The notes below the pieces were generated by a model, which made no database searches, was not told where the DNA came from, and was given only the letters and a program-made list of their open reading frames with translations. 41,498 bases of DNA, from assembly GCA_001899855.1 (NCBI GenBank), contig MKWR01000034.1:1-41498 (forward strand), read 5' to 3'. The stretch is from Lysobacterales bacterium 63-13 (GTDB lineage Bacteria > Pseudomonadota > Gammaproteobacteria > Xanthomonadales > Rhodanobacteraceae). Positions 2,867 to 21,771 of the stretch are shown piece after piece. The position numbers were made by a program, and so were the translations under genes. The number at the start of each line of letters is the position of its first letter. The first letter of the stretch is position 1.

Positions 2867-2876
2867 TACCGATGCC

Positions 2877-4283
2877 ATGCACTGGGCCTGTATTTTGTTT
2901 CCCCATTTTGCCGTCGATGGCGTGCAGAGGCAGCGCCCGCCGTCCGCGCGACCACTGGCTATGCTCACGGGCCCCGCGCACCGGCGCGTGGTTCACGCGG
3001 TCAACGACGCGGCCGCTGCGCGCGGATTGAAGGCCCGGCTCTCGGTCCAGGCCGCGCAGGCGTTGACATCGGACTGCGACTGGGTCGAGTTCGACGCGAG
3101 CGCCATGGAGCGCGACCGGCAGCTCTTGGCAGCTTGGGCCTACGGTTTCAGCTCGCAGGTGTCTCTCGCCTTCGACGACGCCCTGGTACTCGAGATCGGG
3201 CAGAGCATCGCGCTATTCGGGCCGTGGCCGGACTTTGAGCGGCGACTGCGTCTTGAACTTGACGACCTCGGTTTCCGGCACCGCATCGTTGCGGCGCCGA
3301 ACGCGTGGGCCGCGCGAACCCTGGCGAACGTTCACGACGGCCTGGGCGTCGATGCACCGCAACTTTCCGGGGCCATCGGTCGTTTGCCGGTGGCCGCCGC
3401 AGGCTTCGCTCCTGATGTGACAGAGGCATTCACGCGCATGGGTCTGAGACGCCTCAACCAAGTAATGGCCGCGCCGCGCGAAGGCATCGCGCGCCGGTTT
3501 CCGCCGCACGTGCTCGATTGGGTCGATGCGCTGTGCGGACGAGTGGTGCCGCTGCGCATGTACCGGCCGCCGTCAACGTTCCAACGGCGCATGGAGTTCG
3601 ACCATGAAATCGAACTGACGAGCGGACTGCTGTTTCCGCTGCGTCGACTCGTTGGCGATCTCGCGACGTTCGTCCGCGCGCGAGACGGGGGCGTTCAACG
3701 GTTCCAAGTCGTCTTCGAGCACGACCGCTTCGAATCCACCGTGCTCGACGTGGGGATGCTGGCGCCGGAGCGTGACGCCTTGCGCTTGCTCGACGTCGCC
3801 TGCCATCGCTTGGATCGCCTTACGTTGAAGGCCCCCGTACGTGCGGTGTCCATCGTGGCCGATGACCTGCCGCCATTCGTGCCGCCGTCGGGCGATCTCT
3901 TTGAGGAGCACCCGCAAGGCGCACTGTCGTTCGACCAGCTTCGCGAGCGCCTTCGCGCGCGACTCGGGGATACCGAAGTCCACGGGATGGCCACCGACTT
4001 TGACCATCGGCCCGAACGGGCATGGCGACGTCAACGCGAACGCAACGAACCGCTGGCAGCGCTCGCGGATGCGCGTCCCGCCTGGATGCTGGAGAAACCC
4101 ATTCTCTTCCGGGCGCGCCATCGCGTCCTCTTCGGACCGGAGCGCGTGGAAAGCGGCTGGTGGGACGGCGACGACGTGCGCCGCGACTACTACATCGTTG
4201 AAACCGACGCCGGCCAAGTCGCTTGGGTGTACGCGGCATCGGGTGAGCGGGGGCCGTTCATGCTTCACGGGTTTTTCGCGTGA
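2877..4283 (+). CDS. imuB: ImuB, Y-family polymerase-like mutasome protein
   Basis: A 468-residue ImuB. It opens with the Y-family pattern [20 protein letters not shown], continues through palm-like sequence ([20 protein letters not shown]) and a helix-hairpin region (residues about 175-235, [20 protein letters not shown]), and ends with the ImuB-specific domain ([15 protein letters not shown]). ImuB proteins lack the catalytic acidic residues of true Y-family polymerases and act as the hub binding the beta clamp, ImuA and DnaE2. The stop codon overlaps the GTG start of dnaE2 by 4 bp (GTGA), showing translational coupling. Confidence 0.9.
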
Positions 4284-5689
4284 GCCTGTCCGGGTACGCC
4301 GAACTTCATTGCCTGTCGGCGTTCTCGTTCCAGCGCGGCGCGTCTATCGCGAAGGAGTTGTTCCACCGCGCCGCACACGTCGGCTACGAAGCGCTCGCCA
4401 TCACCGACGAATGCTCGCTCGCGGGCATCGTGCGCGCGCACGAAGCGGCGCAAGAAATGGGCGTGCGCCTCATCATCGGCAGCGAGTTCCAACTGCACGA
4501 CGGACCAAAGGTTGTTTTGTTGGTCGTCGACCACGACGGCTACACCGCGCTGTGCCGCCTCATCACCGTCGCTCGGCGCGCGGCGGAAAAGGGGAGCTAC
4601 CGACTGACGCGGGCGGACGTTCGCGATGTGCCGGACGGACTGCTGGCGCTGTGGGTGCCGGCGAAGGAACCCGATGCGGAACACGGACGCTGGTTGAGCG
4701 CGGTGTTTCCGCAGCGGTGCTGGCTGGCCATCGAACTTCACCGCGGCATCGACGACGAAGGGCGTTGCCGCCGCTTGCGGGCGCTCGCTGAGACGCTCGG
4801 CTTGCGCGCGGTCGCGGCCGGCGATGTCCACTACCACGTGCGACAACGGCGCGCGCTTCACGACGTGATGACAGCCATTCGCCACCGCACCACCGTTGCC
4901 CGGGCCGGCGCATTTCGGTTTCCGAACGCCGAGCGCCATTTGCGGAGCCGCCGCGCGCTTTCGGCGATCTACCCGGCTGACTTGCTCGACGAAACGCGCC
5001 GCATCGCGGAGCGCTGTCAGTTCTCACTCAAGGAACTGCGTTACACGTACCCGCGCGAACTGGTACCCGATGGGCACACGCCGACGACCTGGCTCAGGCA
5101 TCTCACAGAGGAGGGGGCGCGCTGGCGATGGCCGGACGGCCCGTCGGAAAAGGCACGCACGCTCATCGAAAAGGAGCTCGCCCTCATTGCGGACCTCAAT
5201 TACGAGTCGTACTTTTTGACGGTGCACGACATCGTTCGCTTCGCGCGCAGACAAGGCATCCTCTGCCAGGGCCGCGGGTCAGCGGCGAACTCGGCGGTCT
5301 GCTTTGCGCTGGGCGTGACCGAGATTGCGCCCGACCTCATCGGGATGCTGTTCGAACGATTCATCTCCAAGGAACGCAACGAGCCGCCCGACATCGATAT
5401 CGATTTCGAGCACGAGCGGCGCGAGGAAGTGCTTCAGTACGTCTTCAACCGCTACGGCCGAGACCGTGCGGCCCTGACCTGTGTTGCGACGAGCTACCGC
5501 GGTCGCAGTGCCGTTCGCGACGTCGCCAAGGCGCTGGGCTTGGCAGCCGACCAGGTCGGCGCGCTGGCGAGCATCCTCGATGCCTGGAGCGTCGAAACCC
5601 CGGCCGATGCGCTTTTGCGCGAGGCGGGTTTTGACCCCGACGCGCCGATCATCCGGCGCGTTACCGCAATGACGGCGGAACTGACGAGG
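4280..5689 (+). pseudogene. dnaE2: dnaE2 (imuC) 5' fragment, cut by a Tn3-family transposon
   Basis: The first 470 codons of the error-prone DNA polymerase III alpha subunit DnaE2/ImuC. The GTG start overlaps the imuB stop. It holds the PHP domain ([17 protein letters not shown] at the N-terminus) and part of the polymerase palm, including PDIDID with D371, D373 and D375. At 5690 the frame enters the transposon repeat and ends at 5737 after 16 foreign codons. The third catalytic aspartate of this polymerase family (in [11 protein letters not shown]) is on the distal fragment at 21955, so neither piece can be an active polymerase. Confidence 0.95.
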
Positions 5690-5691
5690 TT
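5687..5691. repeat. Target-site duplication AGGTT, left copy
   Basis: AGGTT directly precedes the left terminal repeat and recurs directly after the right one at 21799-21803. Five bases is the duplication size of Tn3-family elements. Joining the flanks across one copy restores dnaE2 codons reading [15 protein letters not shown], a normal DnaE2 sequence. Confidence 0.93.
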
Positions 5692-5718
5692 GAGGGTCGG
5701 CAGGGATTCATGTAAAAA
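5692..5718 (+). repeat. Left terminal inverted repeat of the Tn3-family element
   Basis: It begins GAGGGTCGGCAGGGATTC and continues ATGTAAAAA. The right end, read inwards, differs at a single position (A/G at base 19). After 15 diverged bases with scattered matches, both ends share CTAAG at bases 43-47, which suggests a bipartite transposase-binding repeat of about 47 bp. Confidence 0.93.
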
Positions 5719-5770
5719 ACAGCCAAAAGCGAACTAAGTGGTTGTTATTGTTGGCCGGAATCGCTTGGTA

Positions 5771-5798
5771 CAGCGCCGTCAGCGCTGATTTTAGTTTT
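5771..5798 (+). terminator. Candidate terminator inside the transposon left end
   Basis: CAGCGC (5771-5776) pairs perfectly with GCGCTG (5782-5787) around a 5-base loop and is followed by ATTTTAGTTTT. It would stop transcripts coming from the broken dnaE2 before they reach the metal operon, leaving that operon under its own MerR-type promoter. Confidence 0.4.
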
Positions 5799-5861
5799 GC
5801 GTCAGAACCCCGCTTGGAACCCAACGCAACTGCAAGCGAGCTCGCCTTCGGCAAATAGCGC

Positions 5862-5893
5862 TTGACCTTGGAGTATTGTCCAAGGTGTAGCCT
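5862..5893 (+). promoter_or_regulatory. MerR-type promoter/operator of the metal operon
   Basis: TTGACC (5862-5867) and TAGCCT (5888-5893) are separated by 20 bp. Between and overlapping them is a perfect dyad, ACCTTGG and CCAAGGT (5865-5871 and 5880-5886) with an 8-base centre. An over-long spacer with a dyad between the hexamers is the hallmark of promoters that MerR-family activators untwist. Twenty bases matches the ZntR-type spacing, while CueR and MerR promoters usually have 19. It reads into the regulator gene, so the regulator is autoregulated with its operon. Confidence 0.8.
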
Positions 5894-5925
5894 CACTCCG
5901 TGCAAAACGGAATAAGAGGCTATCC

Positions 5926-6369
5926 ATGCAGGCACTGACTGTCGGCGAAGTGGCGAAGCGCGCTGGCGTTGGCTCCGATACGGTTCGGTTCTACGAACGC
6001 GAAGGCTTGATCGACAAGCCTCCGCGCCGTCCGTCGGGCTACCGGCAATACCCCGAGGAGACGGTCTCCCTGATCCGTTTCATCCGGCGGGCGCAGGACT
6101 TGGGCTTCACGCTCAAGGAAGTCGATGAGCTGATCAGCCTCCGCGACGGCGCCAATCGGCACCGGGGCGAGGTTCGCGCGCTCGCGACCTCCAAGCTCCA
6201 GGACATCGACCGCAAGCTCACCCGGCTCCAGGCCATGCGCAGTGCGCTCGCCGGGATGCTGGAGGACTGCGAATGCGGGGCGCGGCCGAGCTGCCCCATC
6301 CTCGCGGTGCTCAACGATCCCGACGACGAATTACCCACTCAAGCGAGGCCATCTCATGACCAGCAGTAA
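5926..6369 (+). CDS. MerR-family metal-responsive regulator, CueR-like Cys pair
   Basis: A 147-residue MerR-family activator. It has an N-terminal winged helix (LTVGEVAKRAGVGSDTVRFY), a dimerisation helix and a C-terminal metal loop with C115, C117 and C123. The C115-C123 spacing of 8 equals that of C112-C120 in the Cu(I) sensor CueR. Divalent sensors such as MerR and ZntR also carry a Cys on the dimerisation helix. Here the matching place (RHRGEV) holds Arg80, whereas CueR has Ser77. This points to a monovalent soft metal (Cu, Ag or Au) but is not decisive. The gene is first in a co-directional run and its end overlaps the next start by 14 bp. Confidence 0.85.
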   Translation: MQALTVGEVAKRAGVGSDTVRFYEREGLIDKPPRRPSGYRQYPEETVSLIRFIRRAQDLGFTLKEVDELISLRDGANRHRGEVRALATSKLQDIDRKLTRLQAMRSALAGMLEDCECGARPSCPILAVLNDPDDELPTQARPSHDQQ

Positions 6370-6718
6370 ACGCGCATCCTCCCGTCCCGTCATCTCGGCC
6401 CTGTTTGCCGGGCTGATTGGCGTGTTCACCCTCACGGCCGCCGCTTGCAGCGAGCCCACACCGCAACCCACCAAGGCAACACAGGAAGCCGGCATGAAGA
6501 CCGTTCTGATCCCGATCGAAGGCATGGCCTGCATGTCATGTGCGGCAAAGGTTACGAAGGCCATCGAATCCCTCAAGGGCGTGTCCGACGCCGAAGTCAA
6601 TCTGGCTGACCGCAATGCGCGCGTGCAATTTGCGCCTAACGAAATTGCGGTGAGTCAGATCGCCGCCGCGGTCAACGGTCTGGGTTACAAAGCGGGTGCG
6701 CCGGTGGAGGCGAAGTGA
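6356..6718 (+). CDS. HMA-domain periplasmic lipoprotein (MerP-like)
   Basis: A 120-residue protein with a basic N-terminus, a hydrophobic segment and a lipobox-like LTAAAC, followed by one heavy-metal-associated domain with the metal loop GMACMSCAAKV (CxxC). Predicted to be exported and lipid-anchored, it would bind a soft metal in the periplasm. It overlaps the regulator gene by 14 bp and the next gene by 4 bp (GTGA), so it belongs to the same operon. It is the likely metal carrier for the downstream CcdA-like protein or ATPase. The partner is inferred. Confidence 0.82.
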   Translation: MTSSKRASSRPVISALFAGLIGVFTLTAAACSEPTPQPTKATQEAGMKTVLIPIEGMACMSCAAKVTKAIESLKGVSDAEVNLADRNARVQFAPNEIAVSQIAAAVNGLGYKAGAPVEAK

Positions 6719-7404
6719 CCCTCGACGCCTTCCTGCGTCAGTTCGGCGGTGGCCTGAGCGACGAGCTCTCGATCATCGGGCTGGGGATCGTGTTTCTGGC
6801 CGGCGTCGTGGCCAGCGCGGTCTGCCCGTGCACGGTGCCCGTGGGGTTGGGCGTTGCCGGCGCCGCCGGCGCCACCGAGACCGAATCCAAGCGCGGCGGG
6901 CTGGCGATCGCTGCTGCGTTCTTCACCGGCATCGTTGTCAATCTGACGGTGCTCGGAATGCTCGCGGGCCGGCTCGGTGCGTTCGCGACCGCACAGTTCG
7001 GGCGTTACTGGTCCCTGGGCATGGCCCTCATGTTTTTCGCCGGCGCTGTTTTCGTGTTCCTGGCGCCGCGATTGAAGGTAAGCCAGTTGGCGGGATGGCG
7101 GCGGCCGGGCGTAACCGGCGCGTTCGGTTACGGATTCGTCTTCAGCCTGGGCACCTCCGTCGCGCCGCTGTTGCTGTTGCTTTCCGTCTCGGCGGCCGCG
7201 GCCAGCCCGATGCAAGGGCTGGTGCTCGCGTTTGTCTTCGGGTTGGGCCGAGGGCTGCCTTTTTTGCTCGCCGGCCTGGCGGCGGGCGCATTGACTGGCT
7301 TCACTCGCCTGAGCGCGTGGAGCCGCCCCCTGCATGTCATCAGCGGGCTCGCCCTACTCGGGGTGAGCCTGTACTACGCGAACACGTTCGCAATCCTGCT
7401 TTAA
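6715..7404 (+). CDS. CcdA/DsbD-like integral membrane protein
   Basis: A 229-residue membrane protein with about six hydrophobic segments and a GTG start coupled to the previous stop. The CcdA/DsbD transmembrane family is indicated by its glycine-rich first helix and the pair in VCPCTVPVGLG, where CcdA/DsbD proteins keep the cysteine that passes electrons across the membrane. A second family-like segment is FSLGTSVAPLLLLLSVS, which has lost the second cysteine. It could move reductant or metal between the cytoplasm and the HMA lipoprotein. It lies 12 bp upstream of the ATPase. Confidence 0.7.
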   Translation: MTLDAFLRQFGGGLSDELSIIGLGIVFLAGVVASAVCPCTVPVGLGVAGAAGATETESKRGGLAIAAAFFTGIVVNLTVLGMLAGRLGAFATAQFGRYWSLGMALMFFAGAVFVFLAPRLKVSQLAGWRRPGVTGAFGYGFVFSLGTSVAPLLLLLSVSAAAASPMQGLVLAFVFGLGRGLPFLLAGLAAGALTGFTRLSAWSRPLHVISGLALLGVSLYYANTFAILL

Positions 7405-7416
7405 GAGATCACCGAC

Positions 7417-9819
7417 ATGGCAACCGAAACCGTCCAGATCAAAGCCTCGGGCATGATGTGCTCGTTCTGCACCATGAGCGTGGAGAAGTCACTCAAGAAA
7501 TTGCCCGGCGTCAACAGCGTGCTCGTCAACCTGGTGCACGGCGTCGTGCTCGTGGAAGCCGACACCGCCAAAACCAGCAAGCAGGTGCTGGCCGAGGCGG
7601 TCAACGCGCTCGGCTACCCCGTCTCGGAGACCGAGGCGCAACAGCTGGCCAAGGATCAGGCGTTCTATCAACTGGTGCGCCAGCGCGGCCTGTTGGGCTT
7701 GGCGCTGTCCGCCGTCGACGTGATCGTCGACCCGCTGAACCTGTTCGGCTTGCCTGAGACGGTACGGGCGATCTTCAGCTTGCTGCTGGCGCTGTTCGTG
7801 CTGATCTGGGTCGGCAAGCCGGTGCTGGTGCGCACGCTGATGGCGATCCGCAAGGGCGTGGTCAACGCCAACGTCCTGCTGTCGCTGGCCGCCTGGGGTT
7901 CGCTGGTCGTGGGCGCGTTGTCGATCGTCAGTCCGCAATGGCCGAACTTCCTGCCGGTCGCGATCTGGCTGATGTCGCTCCACATCTTCTCGAACTATTT
8001 CAAGCTCGGCACCAATCTGAAAGCGGCCGAAGCCGTGCGCAGCATGCTGTCGCTGCAACCGCCGCGGGCGCGCGTCCTGCGCGGCGGCACCGAGGTCGAG
8101 GTCGCGGTCGAGCAGGTGTCGAAGGGCGAGACGATCATCGTGCGTCCCGGCGAGCGGATCGCGTTGGATGGCGAAGTCGTGCGCGGCCTGGCCAGCGTCG
8201 ACGAGTCGAGTTTCACCGGCGAGTCGGTGCCTGTCGGCAAAGAGCCCGGCAGTAGCGTGATCGGCGGCACCCTCAATGTCGACGGGGCGCTGGAGATCCT
8301 GGTCACCAAGGTCGGACAGGAGAGCTTCCTGAGTCAGCTGGTCCGGCTGATGAGCCAGATTTCCGATCGCAAGGTGCCGCTGGAGCTGCTCGCCGACCGT
8401 CTGATGAACTACTACGGCCCGGTCGTGCTGGTGCTCAGCGGTCTGGCTTTCCTCGGCTGGGGTTTGGCGACCCAGGACCTGGTGCTGGCGACGGTCATTG
8501 CACTGGCCACGCTGATCATGGGCTACCCGTGCGCGCTGGGCATGACCACGCCGATGCTCGCGGCGATCGCCGGCGGCAAGGGCATCACCATCGGCCTGCT
8601 GGTCAAGTCGGGCGAGGTGTTCCACCAGTTGGCGCACGTGGACACCGTGGTGTTCGACAAGACCGGCACGCTGACCTACGGGCGCCCGACCGTGACCGAC
8701 GTGGCGACGTTTGGCATCGACCAGCGCGAACTGCTGGCGTTGGCCGCCAGTGTCGAGGTCAAGTCCGAGCATCCGCTCGGACGCGCGATCGCGTTCTATG
8801 CGCAGGCCCAGGGCATCCAGCCGAACGAAGTCACGAACTTCCGCTCGACCGCGGGCCAGGGCGTGATCGGCACGGTGGGCACGAGCGAGCTGCGCATCGG
8901 TAATCCGCGCTTCATGGATCGGGAAGGCATCGAGCTGTCATCCGAGGCGCGGCAGGCGGTCGATGCGTTCACCGTCGCCGGCAAGACGGCCGTGCTTGCA
9001 GCTCGCGATCGGCAGATTGTCGGCGTGATCGCGATGCAGGACACGCCGCGCCCGGGCACCCGCGAGCTGATGGCGGACCTCAAGCGGTTGGGCATTCGCA
9101 CGACGCTGCTGACGGGCGACGCCGAGCCCGTCGCGCGCAGCGTTGCCGACGCGATCGGCATCGACGATGTGCGTGCGCAGCTGCTGCCGGCCGAGAAGGT
9201 CGCCCAGGTCGAGGCCTTGCAGAAGGCCGGCCGGCACGTCGCCATGGTCGGCGACGGCGTCAACGACGCCCCCGCGCTGCTGCAGTCGAATGTCGGCATC
9301 GCGGTCGGAGCCGGCACCGATGTCGCCATTGAATCGGCGGGCGTCATCATGCTCGGCGACCGTATTCGCGACATCGCCGGCGCGCTGGTTCTCGGCAAGG
9401 CCAGCTACCGCACCATGCAGACGAACGTGGGATTGGCCGTCGCCGCAAACGTGGTCGGCATCGTGCTGGCGGCGACCGGCTTCATCACCCCGGTGCTGGC
9501 GATCGCTTTCATCCTCGCCAGCATCGTCGCCATCATGTTGAACACGTTGCGCATCCGCGCGATCGACCTGCGCCAGCACGACAGCGCCGATGCGCCCGCC
9601 GTGGCGCTGGCCGAGACGGAGTTCCGCATTCCCACGATGGTGTGCGGCGGTTGCGCCGAGAAGATCACCGACGTGCTCAAGCCGCTGCCGGGCGTGCGTG
9701 AAATCAAGCCGAAGATCGCCCAGAAGCACGTGATCGTGCGCTACGAACCGGCCCGGATCGAGCGCGATCAGATCCGCGATGCGTTGGGCAAAGCGGGCTA
9801 CGACGCGGTGGAGATCTGA
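7417..9819 (+). CDS. P1B-type metal ATPase with YPC motif and HMA domains at both ends
   Basis: An 800-residue heavy-metal P-type ATPase. An N-terminal HMA domain has GMMCSFC (C15, C18). Then come the TGES actuator loop, the phosphorylation site DKTGT (D414), the SEHPLG nucleotide motif and GDGVNDAP. A second HMA domain with VCGGC (C743, C746) lies at the C-terminus. The metal-site helix reads GYPCALG (Y370-C372) where Cu(I) and Zn/Cd pumps have CPC. The YN and MxxSS signatures of Cu(I) pumps are also absent (VAANVVG and IVAIMLNTL stand there). It therefore exports a metal, but with an unusual site, and specificity cannot be read from known motifs. It sits between the CcdA-like gene (12 bp) and the [2Fe-2S] gene (1 bp). 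Confidence 0.93.
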   Translation: MATETVQIKASGMMCSFCTMSVEKSLKKLPGVNSVLVNLVHGVVLVEADTAKTSKQVLAEAVNALGYPVSETEAQQLAKDQAFYQLVRQRGLLGLALSAVDVIVDPLNLFGLPETVRAIFSLLLALFVLIWVGKPVLVRTLMAIRKGVVNANVLLSLAAWGSLVVGALSIVSPQWPNFLPVAIWLMSLHIFSNYFKLGTNLKAAEAVRSMLSLQPPRARVLRGGTEVEVAVEQVSKGETIIVRPGERIALDGEVVRGLASVDESSFTGESVPVGKEPGSSVIGGTLNVDGALEILVTKVGQESFLSQLVRLMSQISDRKVPLELLADRLMNYYGPVVLVLSGLAFLGWGLATQDLVLATVIALATLIMGYPCALGMTTPMLAAIAGGKGITIGLLVKSGEVFHQLAHVDTVVFDKTGTLTYGRPTVTDVATFGIDQRELLALAASVEVKSEHPLGRAIAFYAQAQGIQPNEVTNFRSTAGQGVIGTVGTSELRIGNPRFMDREGIELSSEARQAVDAFTVAGKTAVLAARDRQIVGVIAMQDTPRPGTRELMADLKRLGIRTTLLTGDAEPVARSVADAIGIDDVRAQLLPAEKVAQVEALQKAGRHVAMVGDGVNDAPALLQSNVGIAVGAGTDVAIESAGVIMLGDRIRDIAGALVLGKASYRTMQTNVGLAVAANVVGIVLAATGFITPVLAIAFILASIVAIMLNTLRIRAIDLRQHDSADAPAVALAETEFRIPTMVCGGCAEKITDVLKPLPGVREIKPKIAQKHVIVRYEPARIERDQIRDALGKAGYDAVEI

Positions 9820-9820
9820 C

Positions 9821-10261
9821 ATGTCGCGCGCGCCCCTTCCCCCGTCGCCACAACGCCGCACGGATGACGGCATCGAGCGCGGCGACGCAATCGAGATCGT
9901 CGTCGACGGTGATCCGGTGTGCGCCTATGAAGGCGAGAGCGTCGCCGCGGCTTTGCTGGCGATCGGTCAACGGACCCTGCGAACGACCAGCCGTCGCAAC
10001 GCGCCGCGCGGACTCTACTGCGGCATCGGCAGCTGCTTCGAGTGCGTGATGGTCATCGATGGCCGACCGGGGATTCGGGCCTGCCAAACCCCCGTCCGCG
10101 ACGGGATGCATATCGAAACACAGCAAGGAGAGGGCCAATGGGCATTCGCTACGCCATCGAAGTCTTCACCCAGGACTGCTGCGCCTGCGCCGGCTTCATC
10201 GCCTATGCGCGAGAACTGGCCGCCTCGCGACCCGGAAGCACCGTGCGGGTGTGGGACGTGA
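9821..10261 (+). CDS. HcnA-like [2Fe-2S] subunit
   Basis: The first ~107 residues match the small [2Fe-2S] subunit of HcnABC cyanide synthases, opine oxidases and related amine dehydrogenases. Cysteines follow a CX4CX2CX12C pattern (YCGIGSCFEC to IRAC), the ferredoxin-type arrangement. It would pass electrons from a flavin subunit. The start is one base after the ATPase stop. The frame runs about 40 residues past the usual end, in Pro/Ser/Ala-rich sequence, and overlaps the next gene by 124 bp in another frame. That tail is probably a lost stop codon or an upstream frameshift, and may not be functional. Confidence 0.8.
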   Translation: MSRAPLPPSPQRRTDDGIERGDAIEIVVDGDPVCAYEGESVAAALLAIGQRTLRTTSRRNAPRGLYCGIGSCFECVMVIDGRPGIRACQTPVRDGMHIETQQGEGQWAFATPSKSSPRTAAPAPASSPMRENWPPRDPEAPCGCGT

Positions 10262-10383
10262 CCCAGCAGGCAACCCGAACGCGCATGCGCGCACTGCACC
10301 TCGCCGAGTTGCCGGCCATCGTCGTTGACGGCGTGCCGCTGCCCTGCTGCAGCCCAGCGCCGGACGGGAACGCACCGACATGA
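10138..10383 (+). CDS. Small thioredoxin-fold protein with CCAC motif
   Basis: An 81-residue frame with a strong AAGGAG-type ribosome-binding site. A beta-alpha-beta start (YAIEVFTQDCCACAGFIAYA) places a CxxC within C14-C15-A16-C17. A later LPAIVVDG carries the cis-proline typical of thioredoxin folds, and a CC pair lies near the end. It begins inside the tail of the [2Fe-2S] gene and its stop overlaps the next start (ATGA). A thiol redox or metal-handing role fits, but no named family is certain. Insertion of such a gene between HcnA-like and HcnB-like genes is unusual. Confidence 0.65.
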   Translation: MGIRYAIEVFTQDCCACAGFIAYARELAASRPGSTVRVWDVTQQATRTRMRALHLAELPAIVVDGVPLPCCSPAPDGNAPT

Positions 10384-11834
10384 CGGCACCGCTGGTCATC
10401 ATCGGCGGCGGGCCAGCTGGCATGGCGACCGCCATCGAGGCGGCCAAGGCCGGACTTGCGTGCACGCTGCTCGACGAAGCGCCGCGCTTGGGTGGACAGA
10501 TCTATCGGCAGCCGCCGCGCGAGTTTCGACTGACCGAGCAACAGATGCACAACCGCGATTATCGCCGCGGCGCCGCGCTGCGCGCCGAGTTCGCGGCCGT
10601 GGGTGACCGGATCGAACTGCGTTCCGAGACCGCGGTGGTGGGGCTGGAAGGCGGTCGCGAAGTCGTCTGGACCTCGCGCGAGGCGTCCGGCACGTTGCGT
10701 GCCGAGCAGCTGGTGATCGCGACCGGCGCCTACGAGCGGCCGCTGCCGTTTCCGGGCTGGACGCTGCCCGGCGTCATGACCGCCGGTGGCGCGCAGTCCC
10801 TGGTCAAGACCATGCACGTCCAGCCCGGTCGCCGAGCACTGGTCGCCGGCACCGGGCCGCTGCTACTGGTCGCAGCGAACCAGCTGCACCAGGCCGGTGT
10901 AGAGATCGTTGCCGTGCTCGAAGCCGGGCGGCCCACGTGGTCGCCCCGCGTCCTGCCGAAGGTCTGGGGCGAGTGGCAGTTGCTGCATGATGCGTGGACG
11001 TACTGGCGCGGCCTGCGCCGGGCGCGGATTCCGGTGCATTTCAATCACACGGTGTTCGAGGCGCACGGTCGCGGCGAAATCGAAGCCGTGAGCTACGGAC
11101 CGATCGATCCCGTGTCCTGGCGTCCACGTCGCGCTCAGACCCAGCGGGTCGAGGTCGACCTGCTGGTCGTCGGCTTTGGGCTGGTACCGAACACGGCCCT
11201 CGCCGATCTGGCCGGATGCCGACACGATTACGTGCACGAGGTCGGCGGCTGGATTCCCGTCCGCACCCCGCACATGGAGACGACCGTACCGGACGTGTTC
11301 GCGGTCGGCGATGGCGCCGGAGTGGCCGGGGCGCTGGTGTCGATCCAGGAAGGGCGGATCGCAGGCATAACCGCCGCCGAACGCGCCGGCGTGCTGTCGA
11401 CCGTGGAGGCCGATCGCCGACGAGCCCCCGCGCTCCAACGGCTGCATTCGCTCGCGCGTGTGCGCGGCCTGCTTGACGAGATGTCTCGGCTGCGTCCGGG
11501 CTTGAGCGAGCTCGCCACGCCATCCACGCTCGCCTGCCGCTGCGAAGAGGTCTCGCTGTCGGAGGTGGACAGCGCGTTCCAGCAAGGCGCGCAGGACCTG
11601 CAGGCGGTCAAGCTGCTGACGCGCCTCGGCATGGGGCCGTGCCAGGGACGCAATTGCGGGCCCTCGATGGCGATGCACCTGGCGAACAAGCTCGGATGTG
11701 GGCCCGCCGACACTGGACGCATCAACCCACGTCCGCCGCTCAAGCCGGTCACGCTTGGCGCGATGGCCCAATTGAATGTCAGCGCGACGGCGGATGCCGA
11801 TCTGGCCGCGCTCGCGCATGGAGGCCCCCGATGA
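10380..11834 (+). CDS. HcnB-like FAD/Fe-S oxidoreductase subunit
   Basis: A 484-residue flavoprotein with an N-terminal FAD dinucleotide-binding motif (IIGGGPAGMATA), GGQIYRQPP, a second nucleotide-binding motif (LVAGTGPLLLVAA) and an FAD motif around VFAVGDGAGVAG. A C-terminal BFD-like [2Fe-2S] region follows (CRCEEVS, then GPCQGRNCGP). This is the architecture of HcnB and of the alpha subunits of opine and D-hydroxyproline oxidases, which oxidise a C-N bond in a small amino compound. It is translationally coupled at both ends (ATGA overlaps). The substrate here is unknown; the name gives ancestry, not proof of cyanide formation. Confidence 0.82.
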   Translation: MTAPLVIIGGGPAGMATAIEAAKAGLACTLLDEAPRLGGQIYRQPPREFRLTEQQMHNRDYRRGAALRAEFAAVGDRIELRSETAVVGLEGGREVVWTSREASGTLRAEQLVIATGAYERPLPFPGWTLPGVMTAGGAQSLVKTMHVQPGRRALVAGTGPLLLVAANQLHQAGVEIVAVLEAGRPTWSPRVLPKVWGEWQLLHDAWTYWRGLRRARIPVHFNHTVFEAHGRGEIEAVSYGPIDPVSWRPRRAQTQRVEVDLLVVGFGLVPNTALADLAGCRHDYVHEVGGWIPVRTPHMETTVPDVFAVGDGAGVAGALVSIQEGRIAGITAAERAGVLSTVEADRRRAPALQRLHSLARVRGLLDEMSRLRPGLSELATPSTLACRCEEVSLSEVDSAFQQGAQDLQAVKLLTRLGMGPCQGRNCGPSMAMHLANKLGCGPADTGRINPRPPLKPVTLGAMAQLNVSATADADLAALAHGGPR

Positions 11835-13084
11835 GTCGCGCTACCGACATCGTAGTAATCGGCGGCGGTGCCATCGGCGGCGCGGTGGCGTACTACGCCG
11901 CCCGCAAGGGCCTGCATGTCACCCTGATCGACCAGCCCAAGCGCGGGCGCGCCACCTCGGCCTCTGCCGGCGGCTTGTGGTCGCTGGGCGAGTCGGTGGG
12001 CCTGGGCTGCGGCGTCATCTTTCACAAGGCCCAGCTCGATGCCGGCACCGCGATACCCGGAAACGGTCCCGCGCAGCTGCCGCCTGCGTTCCTCGATTTC
12101 GCGATGCAGTCCAATGCGATGTTCCCGCAACTCGCGCAGGAACTGCGCGACGACGTCGGCATCGACATCGAGCTGGAGCGCACTTCGCTGCTCTTCCTGA
12201 TCTTTGACGAGGGCGACGAAGCGTTCGCGCGAACGCTCTGGAAAGATTGCCCGTGCGGTCGTCAGCTGATCGACTGGCTGACCCCGGAAGAAGTCGCGGC
12301 CAGCGAGCCGGCGCTCACGCGCGAGCTGCGCGGCGCGCTGCGGTTTAACGGTGACGACCAGGTCAACCCTTACAAGCTGGCCGACGCCTTGCGTGCCGGT
12401 GCGATCCACCACGGCGCGAAGCTGCTGTCGCATACCGAGGTCGTCGGCATCGAAGTGTTCGAGGGCCGCGTTCAGGCCGTGCAGACCAGCACCGACCGCC
12501 TGCCGTGTTCGATCGTCATCAATGCCGCCGGCGCATGGGCGGGCCAGGTCGGGCGCATGGCCGGGCTCGATGTGCCGGTGTACCCGGTCCGCGGCCAGAT
12601 CGTCGGCACGCAAACGCTGCCGCACCTGACCACGGCCTGCATTTCCACGAGCGACTGCTATCTCGCCCAGAAGCACCACGGCGAAGTCATCATCGGCAGC
12701 ACGACCGAGCACGTCGGTTTCGATGTCGGCGTGACCACGTCCGCGATCCAGACGCTCTGCGCCGGCGCGATACGTGCCGTGCCCGCGCTCGCCGATGTCG
12801 ACATCAAGCGCGTCTGGTCGGGGCTGCGTCCCGGCTCGCCCGACGAGCTGCCGATTCTCGGTCCGGTCGACGGGCTGCGCGGGTACTTGAACGCTGCCGG
12901 CCTGTTCCGCACCGGCATCGTCAATGCGCCGCTGACCGGCCTGGTCGTCGCCGACGTGGCGGCGGGTGACCCGGTGTCGCATCCGATCGAGCCGTTTCTT
13001 ATGGCTCGCTTCCAGAACGGTACGCAGACCGTAGTCGACGAGGCGACATCGATGCGGCAGCACGGTATGGCCAGCGCGAAATGA
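11831..13084 (+). CDS. HcnC-like FAD-dependent amine oxidase subunit
   Basis: A 417-residue protein of the DadA/glycine oxidase fold. It has an N-terminal FAD motif (IVVIGGGAIGGAVAYYAARK), a substrate-domain middle (NPYKLADALRAGA, VYPVRGQIVGTQ) and a C-terminal FAD contact region (RVWSGLRPGSPDELPILG). It corresponds to HcnC or the beta subunit of opine oxidase, the likely site of amine oxidation, with electrons leaving through the HcnB-like and HcnA-like subunits. It overlaps the previous gene by 4 bp. It is the last gene of the tightly coupled block; 52 bp then precede a small gene. Confidence 0.82.
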   Translation: MSRATDIVVIGGGAIGGAVAYYAARKGLHVTLIDQPKRGRATSASAGGLWSLGESVGLGCGVIFHKAQLDAGTAIPGNGPAQLPPAFLDFAMQSNAMFPQLAQELRDDVGIDIELERTSLLFLIFDEGDEAFARTLWKDCPCGRQLIDWLTPEEVAASEPALTRELRGALRFNGDDQVNPYKLADALRAGAIHHGAKLLSHTEVVGIEVFEGRVQAVQTSTDRLPCSIVINAAGAWAGQVGRMAGLDVPVYPVRGQIVGTQTLPHLTTACISTSDCYLAQKHHGEVIIGSTTEHVGFDVGVTTSAIQTLCAGAIRAVPALADVDIKRVWSGLRPGSPDELPILGPVDGLRGYLNAAGLFRTGIVNAPLTGLVVADVAAGDPVSHPIEPFLMARFQNGTQTVVDEATSMRQHGMASAK

Positions 13085-13136
13085 ACACAGTCACTGAGAA
13101 GGCGCGAAGCGTTAGCTCTTCGCCGAGGAGGTCACG

Positions 13137-13373
13137 ATGAAAGACACAACGGGGATCCTGATGGTGCTGGATCGGCGGATCCAGGCGTTGCAGCAAAGCC
13201 GTCCCGAGTTCAGCCCCGAACTGCAAGACCTGCTTGGAGCCCGCGCGACCATCGCCGAGCTGATGGCAGTGGTTGAAGCCTTTTTGGAACTGCCGCTACA
13301 ACCCGATGAGCTAGAGGAACGTGCAATCTGCGCCTTAGGGCGCGCGCACGGTGCTCCGTCTGACGATTACTGA
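13137..13373 (+). CDS. 78-residue hypothetical protein
   Basis: A small acidic, helical protein preceded by a strong GAGGAGG ribosome-binding site. It has one Cys near the end (ERAICALGRAHG), no membrane segment and no family that I recognise. It follows the HcnC-like gene by 52 bp in the same direction and probably belongs to the same transcript. Confidence 0.65.
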   Translation: MKDTTGILMVLDRRIQALQQSRPEFSPELQDLLGARATIAELMAVVEAFLELPLQPDELEERAICALGRAHGAPSDDY

Positions 13374-13388
13374 TCGAACTCTTACTTG

Positions 13389-13423
13389 GGGGCGGCGTCG
13401 CGGGCGCGTCGATTTTTCGTCCG
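13389..13423 (+). repeat. Leader repeat, copy 1
   Basis: GGCGGCGTCGCG, a variable base pair region, then CGCGTCGA and TCGTCCG, lying 24 bp before the start of the 67-residue Cys-containing gene. The same sequence recurs exactly 310 bp later in front of the Csp3-like gene with only a few differences. It may be a duplicated leader, a shared regulatory site, or a trace of gene duplication. Confidence 0.7.
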
Positions 13424-13446
13424 CTATGAAGAGTAGGAGAACTACG

Positions 13447-13650
13447 ATGAACCAGCACCAAAACCAAGGCAGCGTTTCGCAAAATATGGAGGCCTTCGGC
13501 GAAATATTGCAGGGTTGTGCGACCTGCTGCGACGGAACGCTTCGAGCGGCCCAGTCTTCTGGTGCGGATGCAGAAGTCACCAGAATGATTGAACAGGCCC
13601 GAGACCTGTGCAATCAAGCTGCGCAGCGGGCCAAATCGGCTACCCACTAG
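13447..13650 (+). CDS. 67-residue Cys-containing small protein
   Basis: A short soluble helical protein with a CATCCDG cluster near residue 25 and a further Cys near residue 55 (ARDLCNQAAQRA). It is preceded by a GTAGGAG-type ribosome-binding site. It is not a Csp, but its spacing of Cys residues in amphipathic helices recalls a minimal metal- or thiol-binding helical hairpin. Its leader repeats that of the Csp3-like gene downstream, and a stable hairpin follows its stop. Function unknown. Confidence 0.65.
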   Translation: MNQHQNQGSVSQNMEAFGEILQGCATCCDGTLRAAQSSGADAEVTRMIEQARDLCNQAAQRAKSATH

Positions 13651-13662
13651 TTGATGGACAAC

Positions 13663-13692
13663 GGCCCCGCCTCCGGAAAAGGTGGCGGGGCC
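13663..13692 (+). terminator. Hairpin terminator or attenuator
   Basis: GGCCCCGCC (13663-13671) pairs perfectly with GGCGGGGCC (13684-13692). The following TCATTT is a poor U-tract, so termination may be partial. It separates the 67-residue gene from the Csp3-like gene, which could give the two different transcript levels. Confidence 0.55.
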
Positions 13693-13698
13693 TCATTT

Positions 13699-13733
13699 GG
13701 GGCGGCGTCGCGGACGCGTCGAATCTCGTCCGT
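13699..13733 (+). repeat. Leader repeat, copy 2
   Basis: Second copy of the GGCGGCGTCGCG...CGCGTCGA...TCGTCCG leader, 22 bp before the Csp3-like start. It matches copy 1 with one indel and three or four substitutions. Confidence 0.7.
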
Positions 13734-13754
13734 ACCCAGCAAGGAGTCATCCTC

Positions 13755-14084
13755 ATGAGCCAACACCTGACCCAGGCCGTCAAGGAATGCATCGCAGCTT
13801 GTAACGATTGCGCCACCGAGTGCGGTAATTGTTTCAGCCAGCTGGTCGGCATGGAAAGCAAGAACGACTGCCCGGCTTGCTGCATCGAGTGTGCGGCGAT
13901 CTGCCGTTTGTGCGCCGATGCCATGGCGCGCAACAGCCCCTTCGCCAAAGAGATCTGCGCGCTATGCGCGAAGATCTGCGAGTGGTGCGCCGAGCAATGC
14001 GCCGCGCACGACGGCGAGCATTGCCAACGCTGCGCCGAGGCGTGCCGGCGCTGTGCGGAAGCCTGCCGCCGCATGGCTGCTTGA
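13755..14084 (+). CDS. Csp3-like cytosolic copper-storage protein
   Basis: A 109-residue, Cys-rich four-helix-bundle protein. It has 21 cysteines, mostly as CxxxC and CxxC along four helices (CIAACNDCATECGNC, CCIECAAICRLC, ICALCAKICEWC, CQRCAEACRRC). This is the pattern of Csp proteins, which store many Cu(I) ions inside the bundle. There is no Tat or Sec signal, so it is of the cytosolic Csp3 kind. It starts after AAGGAG and is followed by a perfect hairpin. Its place beside a soft-metal ATPase and regulator makes Cu(I) the leading candidate metal for the whole cassette. Confidence 0.85.
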   Translation: MSQHLTQAVKECIAACNDCATECGNCFSQLVGMESKNDCPACCIECAAICRLCADAMARNSPFAKEICALCAKICEWCAEQCAAHDGEHCQRCAEACRRCAEACRRMAA

Positions 14085-14092
14085 CGTCACTG

Positions 14093-14116
14093 GAGCGCCG
14101 CCGTCAGGCGGCGCTC
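14093..14116 (+). terminator. Hairpin after the Csp3-like gene
   Basis: GAGCGCCGCC (14093-14102) and GGCGGCGCTC (14107-14116) form a perfect 10-bp stem around the loop GTCA, followed by TCTT. It is a likely terminator, although the U-tract is weak. Confidence 0.65.
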
Positions 14117-14197
14117 TCTTACCGAATGCCGCGGGTGACTTCGTCGGCCATGCCGGTTAGTCATGCTGCAACCAGGACCACCTGCGAGGAAGAGGAT

Positions 14198-14566
14198 ATG
14201 GACCGGACTGAGAAGCGTAGCGCAAGGGAAGTTCTTGACGACCACCTGAAGGAAAGCCAGACCGGTTCGGTCGAAGCTGACTTGGCGCGCAACTACGCTG
14301 AGGATGTGGTCGTGTTGATGCGTGGCGAGGCTCACCATGGACACGAGGGCGTTCGCGGGCTGGCGCGCTTGCTTCGCCAGGAACTTCCGGATGCAAGCTT
14401 TGAATACGGCAGCTGCGTGGTAGCAAGCGAGTTTGGATTTCTCGAGTGGAGCGGTCGCGGTGGCCAGGCATATGTCAAGGACGGCGCGGACAGCTATGTC
14501 ATTCGGGAAGGAAAGATCGTTGCGCAGACCATTCACTACACCGTCCAGCGGTCGTCAGCTTCCTGA
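14198..14566 (+). CDS. SnoaL/NTF2-like small protein
   Basis: A 122-residue protein with the SnoaL-like layout: an N-terminal helix, then NYAEDVVVLMRGEAHHGHEG, the usual beta-strand and loop of the cone-shaped NTF2 fold, and a C-terminal sheet (EWSGRGGQAYVKDGADSYVI). These folds serve as small hydrolases, isomerases or binding proteins. The start is preceded by GAGGAAGAGG. It lies between the Csp3 terminator and the exporter. Its role in the cassette is unknown. Confidence 0.75.
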   Translation: MDRTEKRSAREVLDDHLKESQTGSVEADLARNYAEDVVVLMRGEAHHGHEGVRGLARLLRQELPDASFEYGSCVVASEFGFLEWSGRGGQAYVKDGADSYVIREGKIVAQTIHYTVQRSSAS

Positions 14567-14797
14567 GGCAATCTGCAAGCAGCGGCGCCCTGCGGCCCCT
14601 CGGTCACGCCGGTCAAAAAGCGCTGGGGCCGTCCGGGCTTCGATCCCTGTGCCGCATAGACCTCTAAACCATGTCCGATACACCACGCCAAGGCGCGGAA
14701 TCAGCGGCGCGCGCCCTAGTGCTTGCTGCCTGACCGGGTCGAACTTGCCCGCGGGCCGAATAACGATATCGAGGCGAAGCGTCGCCAAAGGAAGCGT

Positions 14798-16033
14798 ATG
14801 CAAACCCCAGACAAGCCAAGCGGTGTGACCGAAGGCAATCGCCATCGAGTGCTGCTGCTCACGCTGCTGCTGGGCGGCTACACGATGCTTGGGCCGTTCT
14901 CGATCTCAACGTACATGCCGTTCTTCCCGGAGCTGGCCGAAGGTCTGGCAGCCTCGCCCGATGCGGTGCAGCAGTCATTGAGCGCATATCTGGCCGCCTT
15001 CGGATTCATGTTGCTATTCCATGGGCCGCTGTCAGATGCTTTCGGGCGGCGCCCTGTCATCCTGATCGGCCTGCTCGTGTTTGTGGTCGCGTCGTTCGGC
15101 GCGGCTCTCTCCACGTCGATCGAGGTTTTGGTCGCGTTCCGCGTACTGCAGGGATTGTCAGCCGGGGCCGGGTCGATTGCAGGGCGGGCCGTGGCACGGG
15201 ACCTGTTCGAAGGCGCCCAAGCCCAGCGCCTGTTCTCCCACATCACCATGATCTTCGCGATCGCTCCGGCCGTCGCGCCCGTGTTCGGCGGCTGGCTGCA
15301 CCAGGCCTTCCCATGGCAATCCGTCTTTACGTTCCTGGCCGTGTTCGCCTTGATCCAGCTGATAGCGAGCTACTTTTTCCTGCCCGAATCGCTTGCGCGC
15401 GACCAGCGTGATTCACTCCGTCCGGCAGGGCTCATCAAGCGCTACCTCTCTGTCGGTCGCAACGCGCGGTTCTGGCTCCTGACCCTCGCGCTCAGCGGCA
15501 ACTTCGCTGCGTTCTTTCTCTATATCGCAGCGGCTCCCGAGTTCGTCCGTACGACACTTGGACTTGGGCCGAATCAGTTCGGCTGGTTGTTCATCCCAGC
15601 CATGTCCGGGGTGATGCTCGGAGCCTTCCTGTCCGGTCGCGCTGCCAAGCGGTTTGGGCCGCAACGCACAGTGCGTATGGGCTATGCGGTCATGGCTGTG
15701 GCAGTCGCGCTGAGCGTGGGCTACAACCTCACCCAGCCGCCGAATGTGCCGTGGGCGATAGCCCCGATCGCAATCTACACCACTGGCATGGCGATGGCGA
15801 CGCCCAGCATTACGCTGCTAACGCTGGATCTGTTTAGTTCGATGCGCGGGCTGGTCTCGTCCATGCAAGGCTTTGCACAGACAATGCTGATGACGATCGT
15901 CTCGGCGTTCCTGGCGCCCGCCCTGGCGGGTAGCGGGGCCGCGCTTGCGTGGGGCAACCTCGGCTTGATGGTCGTCGGGGCGGCTGGCTGGATCGCCTAC
16001 GAGTTCGCGAAGCGGCGCCAAGAGCGTGCGTGA
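14798..16033 (+). CDS. Bcr/CflA-type MFS exporter
   Basis: A 411-residue, 12-helix major facilitator of the Bcr/CflA drug-resistance type. The start at the ATG after AAAGGAAG is preferred over an upstream in-frame ATG that would add 25 polar residues. Family features include the loop 2-3 motif GPLSDAFGRRPVIL and RVLQGLSAGAGSIAGRAVARDL in helices 4-5. It would export a small organic compound using the proton gradient. In this context it might remove a toxic product or ligand of the flavoenzyme, but this is speculation. The 231 bp before it contain no clear gene. Confidence 0.88.
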   Translation: MQTPDKPSGVTEGNRHRVLLLTLLLGGYTMLGPFSISTYMPFFPELAEGLAASPDAVQQSLSAYLAAFGFMLLFHGPLSDAFGRRPVILIGLLVFVVASFGAALSTSIEVLVAFRVLQGLSAGAGSIAGRAVARDLFEGAQAQRLFSHITMIFAIAPAVAPVFGGWLHQAFPWQSVFTFLAVFALIQLIASYFFLPESLARDQRDSLRPAGLIKRYLSVGRNARFWLLTLALSGNFAAFFLYIAAAPEFVRTTLGLGPNQFGWLFIPAMSGVMLGAFLSGRAAKRFGPQRTVRMGYAVMAVAVALSVGYNLTQPPNVPWAIAPIAIYTTGMAMATPSITLLTLDLFSSMRGLVSSMQGFAQTMLMTIVSAFLAPALAGSGAALAWGNLGLMVVGAAGWIAYEFAKRRQERA

Positions 16034-16170
16034 AGCCAACGATTGGCCGCACGTACGCATCGCGGCTCGATCAACTAAAGACAGAAGAATGGCGCGTCAT
16101 CGCGCGCCCTCTTCATAATTGCTCGAACAATCAGTGCGTGGCAGCCATTCGGCAGATTTCCCGCAGCGCC

Positions 16171-17232
16171 TCACTTCGTCGCTCGGGTGTGCGGCGTGCT
16201 TTCCTGTGCCCGGCCTTCGGCCGCGTCGACCTCTGCGCGGGGATGTAGGCGGGCGAACACCGCTTCGGTCGCCTCCAGTCGGGCGCGCAGCGTGAGCGCC
16301 TCGGTTTCGGCTTGCTGTCGCTGCCCACGCTCTTGCACCAATACCTCATTCGCGCTTGCCATTTCGACCTGCAGCGCGTCCAACCGATGGGTGTCGTCGG
16401 CCCAGCGTGCCTGCAAGGCGGTGTGTTCGGCGGCCACTAGCCGCAATCCATCCAGCTCCTGCTGCTGCCCTGCAGTGTCTTCGCGAGCCTGGCGCAGGTC
16501 CTGCTCCAGCCGTCCGTTGAGTTCAAGCAGCCGCCCGGCATCACGGTTGAGCTGCAGCAGCTCGTGGTTCTTGGCGGTCAGCGCCTCGTTGGCCTGGCGC
16601 AGGGCGACCTGCAGCTCTTGCAGCTGCTGCTCGTGCCGACGCTGCTCCTGCTCACGCTGATCCTTGACCGAGGTCCGGTAGTGCTCCAGTGCCTCGCGCG
16701 CGTGTTGGTGCTTCTCCTCCAGCGAGCGGGCGTGGGCCTCGTGCTCGGCCACGCGGATGGTTAGCCCGGCAATGCGTTCCTCCAGCTGCCGCACCGTGGT
16801 GTTCGCCTCGGTGAGGGTTTGCCGCACCTGTGCGTGCTCCTCGGTTTCGGCCTGCAGAGCGGTTTCGGTTCGTTGCAGCTGTGTGCTCAATGCGGCGGCC
16901 TCCTGGCGCGAAGCCTCCAGTGCTGTCTCGCGCTCCTGCAGCTGCGCTTGGAAGCGCTCCCGCGCATCGGCAATGGCGGCTTCGGCCTCCTCATGCAGGC
17001 GGGCCGCGAGCCGGCCGACCAGGTCCTGCAGCGCGTCGCTGACGGCGATCTTGGCACCCACGCTTTGGCCGTCCTCTTCCTCCAGCTCCTTGAGGTAGCG
17101 GTGGATCGTGGTCTTCGAGCCGGTGTTACCCAGCGCCACCCGCAAGGCGTCAACAGATGGGTGTTTTCCCTGTGCAAGCAAGCTGCTGCGGGCCTTCTGA
17201 ACATCGGATTTGTACAAGCCGCCTCGCGCCAT
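16171..17232 (-). CDS. TnpT-like coiled-coil DNA-binding protein (KfrA-type N-terminus)
   Basis: A 353-residue protein. The N-terminal DNA-binding part (MARGGLYKSDVQKARSSLLA, then GSKTTIHRYLKELEEE) resembles the KfrA_N domain. From residue 70 to the end it is a continuous coiled coil, rich in Gln, Glu, Arg and Leu. It is divergent from the tyrosine recombinase gene across the core site, as TnpT is from TnpS in Tn4651-type transposons, where TnpT aids cointegrate resolution. The chosen ATG begins the KfrA-like domain; an upstream extension of the frame runs through the core-site DNA and is not believed. Confidence 0.75.
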   Translation of the reverse strand: MARGGLYKSDVQKARSSLLAQGKHPSVDALRVALGNTGSKTTIHRYLKELEEEDGQSVGAKIAVSDALQDLVGRLAARLHEEAEAAIADARERFQAQLQERETALEASRQEAAALSTQLQRTETALQAETEEHAQVRQTLTEANTTVRQLEERIAGLTIRVAEHEAHARSLEEKHQHAREALEHYRTSVKDQREQEQRRHEQQLQELQVALRQANEALTAKNHELLQLNRDAGRLLELNGRLEQDLRQAREDTAGQQQELDGLRLVAAEHTALQARWADDTHRLDALQVEMASANEVLVQERGQRQQAETEALTLRARLEATEAVFARLHPRAEVDAAEGRAQESTPHTRATK

Positions 17233-17259
17233 GACTGTCTCCCGGTTATTTCGTAACGT

Positions 17260-17286
17260 ATTACATACCACGTAATTACATACTAC
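17260..17286. promoter_or_regulatory. Direct repeats, likely binding sites for the TnpT-like protein
   Basis: ATTACATACCAC (17260-17271) and ATTACATACTAC (17275-17286) are near-identical and 15 bp apart, 28 bp upstream of the TnpT-like start. They could be operator or accessory resolution sites. The stretch is strikingly AT-rich against GC-rich neighbours. Confidence 0.5.
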
Positions 17287-17324
17287 AAACAACGCGAGCA
17301 TAATTGAAAAAGGCCGATTTGTTA

Positions 17325-17351
17325 GGCGGGATAATATTGAATTATCCCGCC
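17325..17351. other. Core recombination (res/rst) site
   Basis: A perfect inverted repeat, GGCGGGATAAT (17325-17335) and ATTATCCCGCC (17341-17351), around a 5-base spacer ATTGA. Arms of 11 bp with a short spacer are the form of tyrosine-recombinase core sites, and it lies between the tnpT-like and tnpS-like genes where the rst site of Tn4651 relatives sits. A second, smaller dyad (ACCCCAA/TTGGGGT) follows at once. Confidence 0.7.
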
Positions 17352-17449
17352 TTAACCCCAAAATTGGGGTAGAGTCGGCCCGAAGCGGTACGAAACCGCC
17401 ATCGCAGGCGATTCGTCGGTCCGCAGCGCTGGCAAGCGGGAGCACCACC

Positions 17450-18724: not shown

Positions 18725-18731
18725 GTTGCGC

Positions 18732-21725: not shown

Positions 21726-21771
21726 GGGAAACAGTCGTTTGAAAACATCAGCTTAGGTAGGATTCGGCCCG

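Follow-up and report, generated by a model that had tools for sequence, protein, structure and literature searches.

We analysed a stretch of 41,498 nt of contig MKWR01000034.1 from Lysobacterales bacterium 63-13 (the window), in which genes of metal-resistance type stand in one operon with genes for an enzyme related to HcnABC, the three-subunit hydrogen cyanide (HCN) synthase. Enzymes of this family and P1B ATPases (metal pumps) with a YPC motif form a real, recurrent and mobile association. In the window, the genes form a single tightly packed operon on the + strand (5926-13084), whose neighbours overlap or lie no more than 12 nt apart. A MerR-family metal regulator (5926-6369) overlaps by 14 nt the gene for an HMA-domain lipoprotein-like metal carrier (6356-6718; HMA, 61.1 bits; a lipobox-like TAAAC at the N-terminus, noted by eye), which overlaps by 4 nt that for a CcdA/DsbD_TM-like membrane protein (6715-7404) with a VCPCT motif and a replacement (GTS) of the second CcdA Cys. 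A 12-nt gap leads to the P1B ATPase (7417-9819), which has an HMA domain at each end, and a 1-nt gap to the HcnA-like [2Fe-2S] subunit (Fer2_4; 9821-10261). A small thioredoxin-fold-like open reading frame (ORF; 10138-10383), with a CCAC motif, an AAGGAG ribosome site upstream and a weak, sub-threshold family match (Thioredoxin_3, E 0.016), shares 124 nt with the 3' end of hcnA and 4 nt with the start of hcnB. The HcnB-like FAD/NAD(P)-fold subunit (10380-11834) is in turn overlapped by 4 nt by the HcnC-like DAO-fold catalytic subunit (11831-13084), recognised by profile, alignment, tree and fold. The Fer2, FAD/BFD and DAO subunits hence stand in hcnA-hcnB-hcnC order. An earlier note, made from the sequence alone, had described a MerR-controlled operon of coupled genes with these identities, and family matches, coordinates and the operator bear it out; its three-part enzyme in a metal operon also stands, with the refinement that the thioredoxin-like ORF lies between A and B.

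Upstream of merR, a perfect palindrome of MerR operator type, ACCTTGGA-N6-TCCAAGGT (5865-5886), has 1 match in the window and none in 100 shuffles. It lies within a MerR-type promoter read from the sequence (5862-5893, + strand), made up of TTGACC (5862-5867), a 20-bp spacer and TAGCCT (5888-5893); a sigma-70 consensus scan of 5700-16200, which accepts spacers of 16-18 bp only, reported no promoter. Downstream of hcnC, all on the + strand, follow two small ORFs without a family match (13137-13373 and 13447-13650, the latter of 67 aa), then a gene for a Csp-like (DUF326) Cys-rich four-helix metal-storage protein (13755-14084; DUF326, 36.5 bits against a cut-off of 20.4; TIGR04401, 29.1 against 100), then a SnoaL-like gene (14198-14566) with relatives in two other HcnABC loci (L044, 43%; L045, 61%). 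A 27-nt direct repeat (93%), able to form a G+C-rich hairpin, precedes both the 67-aa ORF (13386-13412) and the Csp-like gene (13696-13722).

The association was examined by scanning one genome per species (84,980 species) with an HcnC alignment. Matches were found in 322 stretches, 267 of which encoded relatives, and the best 80 were examined as loci. HcnC of twelve loci (L038-L049) is 58-69% identical to that of the window and forms the clade considered here; the remaining 68 ordinary loci reach 45-54%. Two clade loci (L039 and L040) are 99.95% identical, leaving 11 distinct loci in four phyla. In 9 of these 11 (10 of 12 before merging), from Pseudomonadota, Planctomycetota and Bacteroidota, HcnABC has a P1B ATPase no more than 2 kb away, whereas none at 35% identity or more was found near HcnC in the 68 ordinary loci. 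Fisher's test gives p = 2.7e-10 for 10/12 versus 0/68, and 6.7e-5 when the ordinary loci are collapsed to 12 genus-level groups, neither value being corrected for descent. In one further clade locus (L042), the contig starts within hcnB. The earlier note had held that its idea of a system would fail if the flavoprotein genes were never found with the ATPase in other genomes; the genome scan shows that they do occur together elsewhere, and the linkage counts speak for a real system. A chance neighbourhood was rejected on these counts and on the tree of YPC pumps described below. A literature search, to which most subscription journals were closed, turned up no description of HcnABC inside a metal operon.

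The order CcdA-ATPase-HcnA-B-C is common to the window, a Pirellulales locus (L038) and Tautonia (L041). In a Bacteroidota locus (L048), the order is Csp, thioredoxin-like protein, ATPase, HcnA-B-C, major facilitator superfamily (MFS) transporter, HMA and CcdA, and a Hymenobacter plasmid (L011) carries the same set minus HcnABC. The core, which also occurs without HcnABC, consists of the YPC-type P1B ATPase, the HMA lipoprotein, the CPC-bearing CcdA-like protein and the Csp-like store. Counterparts of the thioredoxin-like protein adjoin YPC ATPases in four loci (L011, L041, L047 and L048). One MFS family accompanies HcnABC in L041-L045 and L048, is present in Hcn-less L011 as well, and is broken into several frames in L041 and L044. 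Some loci show closer joins: in L039/L040, an HMA domain (28.3 bits) and the HcnA ferredoxin domain (100.6 bits) share one open frame, in which an internal start codon could separate the two; CcdA and HMA are fused in L044; and hcnB and hcnC of L039/L040 and L045 are separated by the gene of an ArsP_1 permease with weak similarity to SO_0444 Cu/Zn exporters (46.1 bits, cut-off 300). Both partners are rare. HcnC was found in 2/200 genomes of the order and 2/398 of the phylum, and the ATPase in 2/369 genomes of the class and 1/246 of the phylum of the L038 host, the window genome or query centre being counted. Viral contigs held generic P1B ATPases only and no HcnC relatives. It is very probable that HcnABC is a functional part of the YPC-pump systems.

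Some HcnABC loci present other settings. The HcnC-like protein of a Myxococcales locus (L049:10001-11644) carries a cyclic-nucleotide-binding domain at its C-terminus. A third HcnABC group (51-54%; L050, L053, L055, L061, L063 and L107), from Nitrosomonadaceae and Planctomycetota, has no P1B ATPase beside it at 35% identity; HcnABC of L050 is followed by two glycosyltransferase-like genes. Four proteins neighbouring HcnABC in L049 and L050, part of a set of eight, included no metal genes.

The pump itself is unusual. The window ATPase has YPC in the sixth transmembrane helix, at the position of the CPC of CopA. It exceeds the cut-off of TIGR01511, a subfamily model for copper ATPases (418.4 bits against 397), and falls short of that of the CopA equivalog PRK10671 (385 against 1316). 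Of the 9 distinct clade loci with an ATPase, 8 have this motif, the ninth (L043) showing the C-terminal half only, and so do all four related pumps without HcnABC; among the other P1B motifs inspected, it occurs in 0 of 24. HcnABC is found with two types of YPC pump, which are 57-65% (type 1) and 37-40% (type 2) identical to the window pump. In a pump tree, the YPC rows group as a single clade, separate from the 12 other P1B rows included (SH-aLRT 99, quick method); the tree omits L040 (a duplicate), L043 and those other P1B rows that have fewer than about 400 aligned residues or are at least 50% identical, and L046 entered it trimmed to the final 850 residues of the open frame. Linkage to HcnABC is scattered across this clade. 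The four YPC rows without HcnABC require three changes, of which at least two are forced by supported branches; hence, the pairing arose or disappeared on more than one occasion.

The enzyme can be placed with some precision. The cofactor cysteines of HcnA (C67, C72, C75 and C88) and the BFD-type set of HcnB (C386, C388, C421 and C426) are conserved in both the clade and the ordinary group, the latter including Pseudomonas chlororaphis and P. fluorescens, which are known cyanide producers. In HcnC, the 13 clade rows and the 68 ordinary rows have 105 conserved positions in common, with 3 diagnostic differences, and W50, E54, C60, Y277, T291-E293, R333 and R360 are invariant in all 81. Of these, R333, R360 and Y277 align with the carboxylate-binding residues of glycine oxidase (R302, Y246 and R329), while D275, T292 and Q280-K281 are common to cyanide-type HcnC and unlike glycine oxidase. 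The AlphaFold model of HcnC (mean pLDDT 89.8) has glycine oxidases as its nearest folds (4ysh, TMt 0.91; 3if9, 0.92), so that both residue alignment and fold point to an active site of glycine-oxidase type. In the HcnC tree, which used 25 of the 68 ordinary rows, 38 HcnC rows group together against eight outgroup rows on very long branches (83/87), and the metal-linked clade is not resolved as one group. In the HcnB tree, built from a subset of ordinary rows and omitting L039, L040 and L042 (short or interrupted frames), this clade is monophyletic (100, quick method) and placement in the Hcn family has a support of 96. Around the family, identity drops from 43% to 34%: non-Hcn homologues on plasmids, including Agrobacterium rows, share 25-34% identity with HcnC of the window, and the structure of a flavin opine dehydrogenase shares 22%. 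An identity as opine oxidase or hydroxyproline dehydrogenase was rejected on the trees and on this 22-34% identity, in a comparison outside which the Ti-plasmid opine oxidase genes lie. Tree, modelled fold and predicted active-site residues thus assign the enzyme to the HcnABC family and not to the opine oxidases, and its substrate is likely to be glycine or another small alpha-amino acid. Of the roles offered in the earlier note, cyanide production gains from this placement and from the retained glycine-oxidase-type residues, and the opine or metallophore option loses ground; the tree it had called for sets both flavoproteins in Hcn families, away from opine- and hydroxyproline-type enzymes.

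The metal is less clear. Both loop cysteines of CueR, eight apart, align in the window MerR, and an Arg occupies the third-Cys position of MerR/ZntR (CueR S77/MerR C82); the cysteine pattern is that of CueR, with a non-Cys residue at position 77. However, the protein scores 126.4 bits against a cut-off of 147.4 for the NCBIfam CueR equivalog, and the cut-off of the MerR equivalog is likewise not reached. The regulators adjoining the L038, L041 and L010 pumps have a Cys at the third-Cys (Hg/Zn-type) position, that of L010 being annotated as Hg(II)-responsive, and the CsoR-like proteins of L047, L048, L009 and L011 are without the Cys-His-Cys set that we would expect of a Cu(I)-sensing CsoR. A plain CueR-CopA copper operon was rejected on the YPC motif, the missed cut-offs and the mixed regulator types of sister loci. 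The copper theme of the earlier note is uncertain: the CueR-like spacing without a third Cys fits it, but the score below the CueR cut-off and two sister operons with the Hg/Zn-type Cys weaken it. It is possible that the metal is copper, silver, gold or mercury.

The operon is cargo of a TnXax1-like Tn3-family transposon of 16.1 kb (5692-21798). These ends were assigned because the terminal repeats, which match at 32 of 38 positions, are flanked on either side by a 5-bp target duplication, AGGTT (5687-5691 and 21799-21803); the mobility supposed by the earlier note has thereby acquired a defined unit, which can spread as a whole. Besides the operon, the element carries a Bcr/CflA-type MFS transporter (14765-16033, +), a passenger of a different family from, and 25-28% identical to, the MFS family beside HcnABC elsewhere. 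A KfrA_N DNA-binding protein (16171-17496, -; Pfam match), a tyrosine recombinase (17450-18724, +) and a Tn3-family transposase (18564-21725, +), the last two with family matches, also match the TnXax1 family at the DNA level, and transposase, inverted repeats and 5-bp duplication are all of TnXax1 type. The DNA of the transposition genes is about 86% identical to that of TnXax1-family elements on plasmids of Xanthomonas (best 15 of 137 records). The cargo DNA matched plasmids in pieces only, with no record covering 80%; the best 40 of 62 matches were short pieces of the ATPase. Insertion has split a dnaE2/imuC-type gene into a left part with PHP and polymerase domains (4280-5734) and a right part with finger, HhH and OB domains (21868-23472). 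Together, 1626-5734 and 21868-23472 make up a mutasome cassette with a LexA-like gene, an ORF of 208 aa at the place of ImuA, an ImuB-like gene and dnaE2/imuC. Further on (23735-26610), a ComM-like Mg-chelatase gene seems shortened (315 aa; the chelatase domain stops at position 96 of 207) and adjoins a 646-aa ORF without a Pfam match, a possible second insertion.

What might the enzyme do for a metal pump? We tentatively propose a soft-metal-responsive operon in which HcnABC oxidises glycine, probably to cyanide that serves as a metal ligand. The transposon-borne operon would handle a soft metal of Cu/Ag/Au or Hg type; metal-bound MerR would turn it on, and the HMA and CPC proteins would relay the metal through the inner membrane, the YPC ATPase and the Csp store being its recipients. 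HcnC would oxidise glycine, its carboxylate held by R333, R360 and Y277, and electrons would leave through HcnB and HcnA to the respiratory chain, completing a four-electron oxidation of glycine to HCN. HCN, a very strong soft-metal ligand, could then form an M(CN)2-type complex to be exported or stored in inert form. That HCN acting on metal is the physiological product may be so, and we hold this step, too, only tentatively. A bolder version is rather doubtful: that soft-metal-poisoned bacteria of several phyla make intracellular cyanide from glycine as a dedicated ligand, and that the YPC pump clade, with CPC carrier, MFS or ArsP-like partners, has adapted to the metal-cyanide complex and not the bare ion.

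Several observations weigh against our proposal. The host genome (3.75 Mb, 36 contigs) has 0 cytochrome bd matches and 5 COX1 matches; cytochrome bd was found in 6 of 12 clade host genomes, mostly incomplete metagenome-assembled genomes (MAGs), and in all four Pseudomonas genomes compared. None of the window operon proteins was recognised as cyanide-detoxifying. HcnB is 30-36% identical to the Pseudomonas/Vibrio type, with 6 diagnostic differences, and HcnC residues 44-50 and 273-280 are conserved partly through selection, as the 80 loci were picked with two HcnC peptides. L049 has no P1B ATPase in 21 kb, and HcnABC accompanies none of the four YPC loci found without the HcnC query, one of which (L015) covers only 4.5 kb. 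In Tautonia sociabilis (L041:9634-10028), hcnC is split near residue 22 by about 0.25 kb with stops, and codon 69 of hcnB is an in-frame TGA at L039:1394, as is the same codon in the near-identical MAG contig L040; the enzyme is therefore not intact in 2 of 11 loci.

The alternative that fares best is a redox partner without cyanide, in which the enzyme takes no more than two electrons from glycine or another amino acid, and these, passing through FAD and [2Fe-2S] and perhaps the thioredoxin-like protein, keep metal or protein thiols reduced. The position of the thioredoxin-like ORF, overlapping hcnA and abutting hcnB, with its counterparts in other loci, the DsbD/CcdA-type protein in the core and the host's lack of cytochrome bd would all fit. 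However, the thioredoxin-like gene is also present in the Hcn-less operon L011, the CcdA-like protein is without the second CcdA Cys, and D275, T292 and Q280-K281 of HcnC are those of the cyanide type and not of glycine oxidase; we regard this alternative as unlikely. It is still less likely that the enzyme degrades a metal-binding amino compound, such as an opine-type metallophore, freeing or disarming its metal. The conserved carboxylate-binding Arg/Tyr residues would suit any alpha-amino acid and six loci have a dedicated MFS next to HcnABC or in its vicinity, but the closest folds are glycine oxidases, non-Hcn and opine-type homologues are as distant as described above, and no metallophore synthase or receptor was seen among the proteins scanned with Pfam/NCBIfam.

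Roles might also be reversed, cyanogenesis being the main trait and the YPC ATPases importing copper to offset cyanide-caused copper starvation in the producer. Such import finds an echo in CopAL6, a YPC pump likened to that of the window by description only, which is reported to have made an E. coli copA mutant less resistant to copper and to have caused the highest accumulation of the metal (PMC11082258). Yet the core occurs without HcnABC and under metal-type regulators, and the CopA of Sulfolobus solfataricus, a YPC pump whose copper resistance is reported as verified (PMC4541151), points to detoxification, which makes the reversal very unlikely. Least likely of all is that the flavoenzyme is a hitchhiker, picked up by mobile DNA and unrelated to its neighbours: the window copy lies on a transposon whose MFS may be a passenger and hcn genes are disrupted in two loci, but linkage in nine loci of three phyla with two pump types, the tight spacing beside the pump and the HMA-HcnA frame all speak against it.

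If our proposal of cyanide as a metal ligand is true, bacteria make cyanide, otherwise familiar as a weapon and as a poison of respiration, for metal tolerance as well, and a whole clade of P1B pumps in which the classical CPC site is missing gains a partner enzyme that explains its odd chemistry. The proposal makes it testable which cargo YPC pumps carry and in which direction. It also gives cyanide synthases an evolutionary setting, as the Pseudomonas/Vibrio cyanide-type and metal-linked enzymes form one family in the HcnC tree.

Among known systems, the hydrogen cyanide synthase HcnABC has the same three subunits in A-B-C order, the same cofactor cysteines and a glycine-oxidase fold. The window enzyme differs in falling into a separate clade (HcnC 45-48% and HcnB 30-36% identical to the Pseudomonas/Vibrio type), in belonging to a metal operon under MerR and in the extra thioredoxin-like ORF between A and B. 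By its description, CopAL6 shares YPC and an HMA domain at both ends with the window pump (PMC11082258), and S. solfataricus CopA shares YPC in place of CPC (PMC4541151), the latter likeness, too, being one of description only; unlike in the window, the accessible parts of both sources mention no HcnABC alongside. TnXax1-family transposons of Xanthomonas have the same transposase, recombinase and KfrA-like genes (about 86% over 69% of a 7.3-kb query), and the window element is set apart from them by its metal/HcnABC passenger. Finally, the CueR/CopA/CopZ and MerR/MerT/MerP operons share with the window a MerR regulator, an HMA carrier, a membrane CPC protein, a P1B pump and one long-spacer operator. 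In contrast to these, the window has YPC instead of CPC, an HMA lipoprotein and a CcdA-like carrier, and adds a Csp-like store and the HcnABC enzyme.

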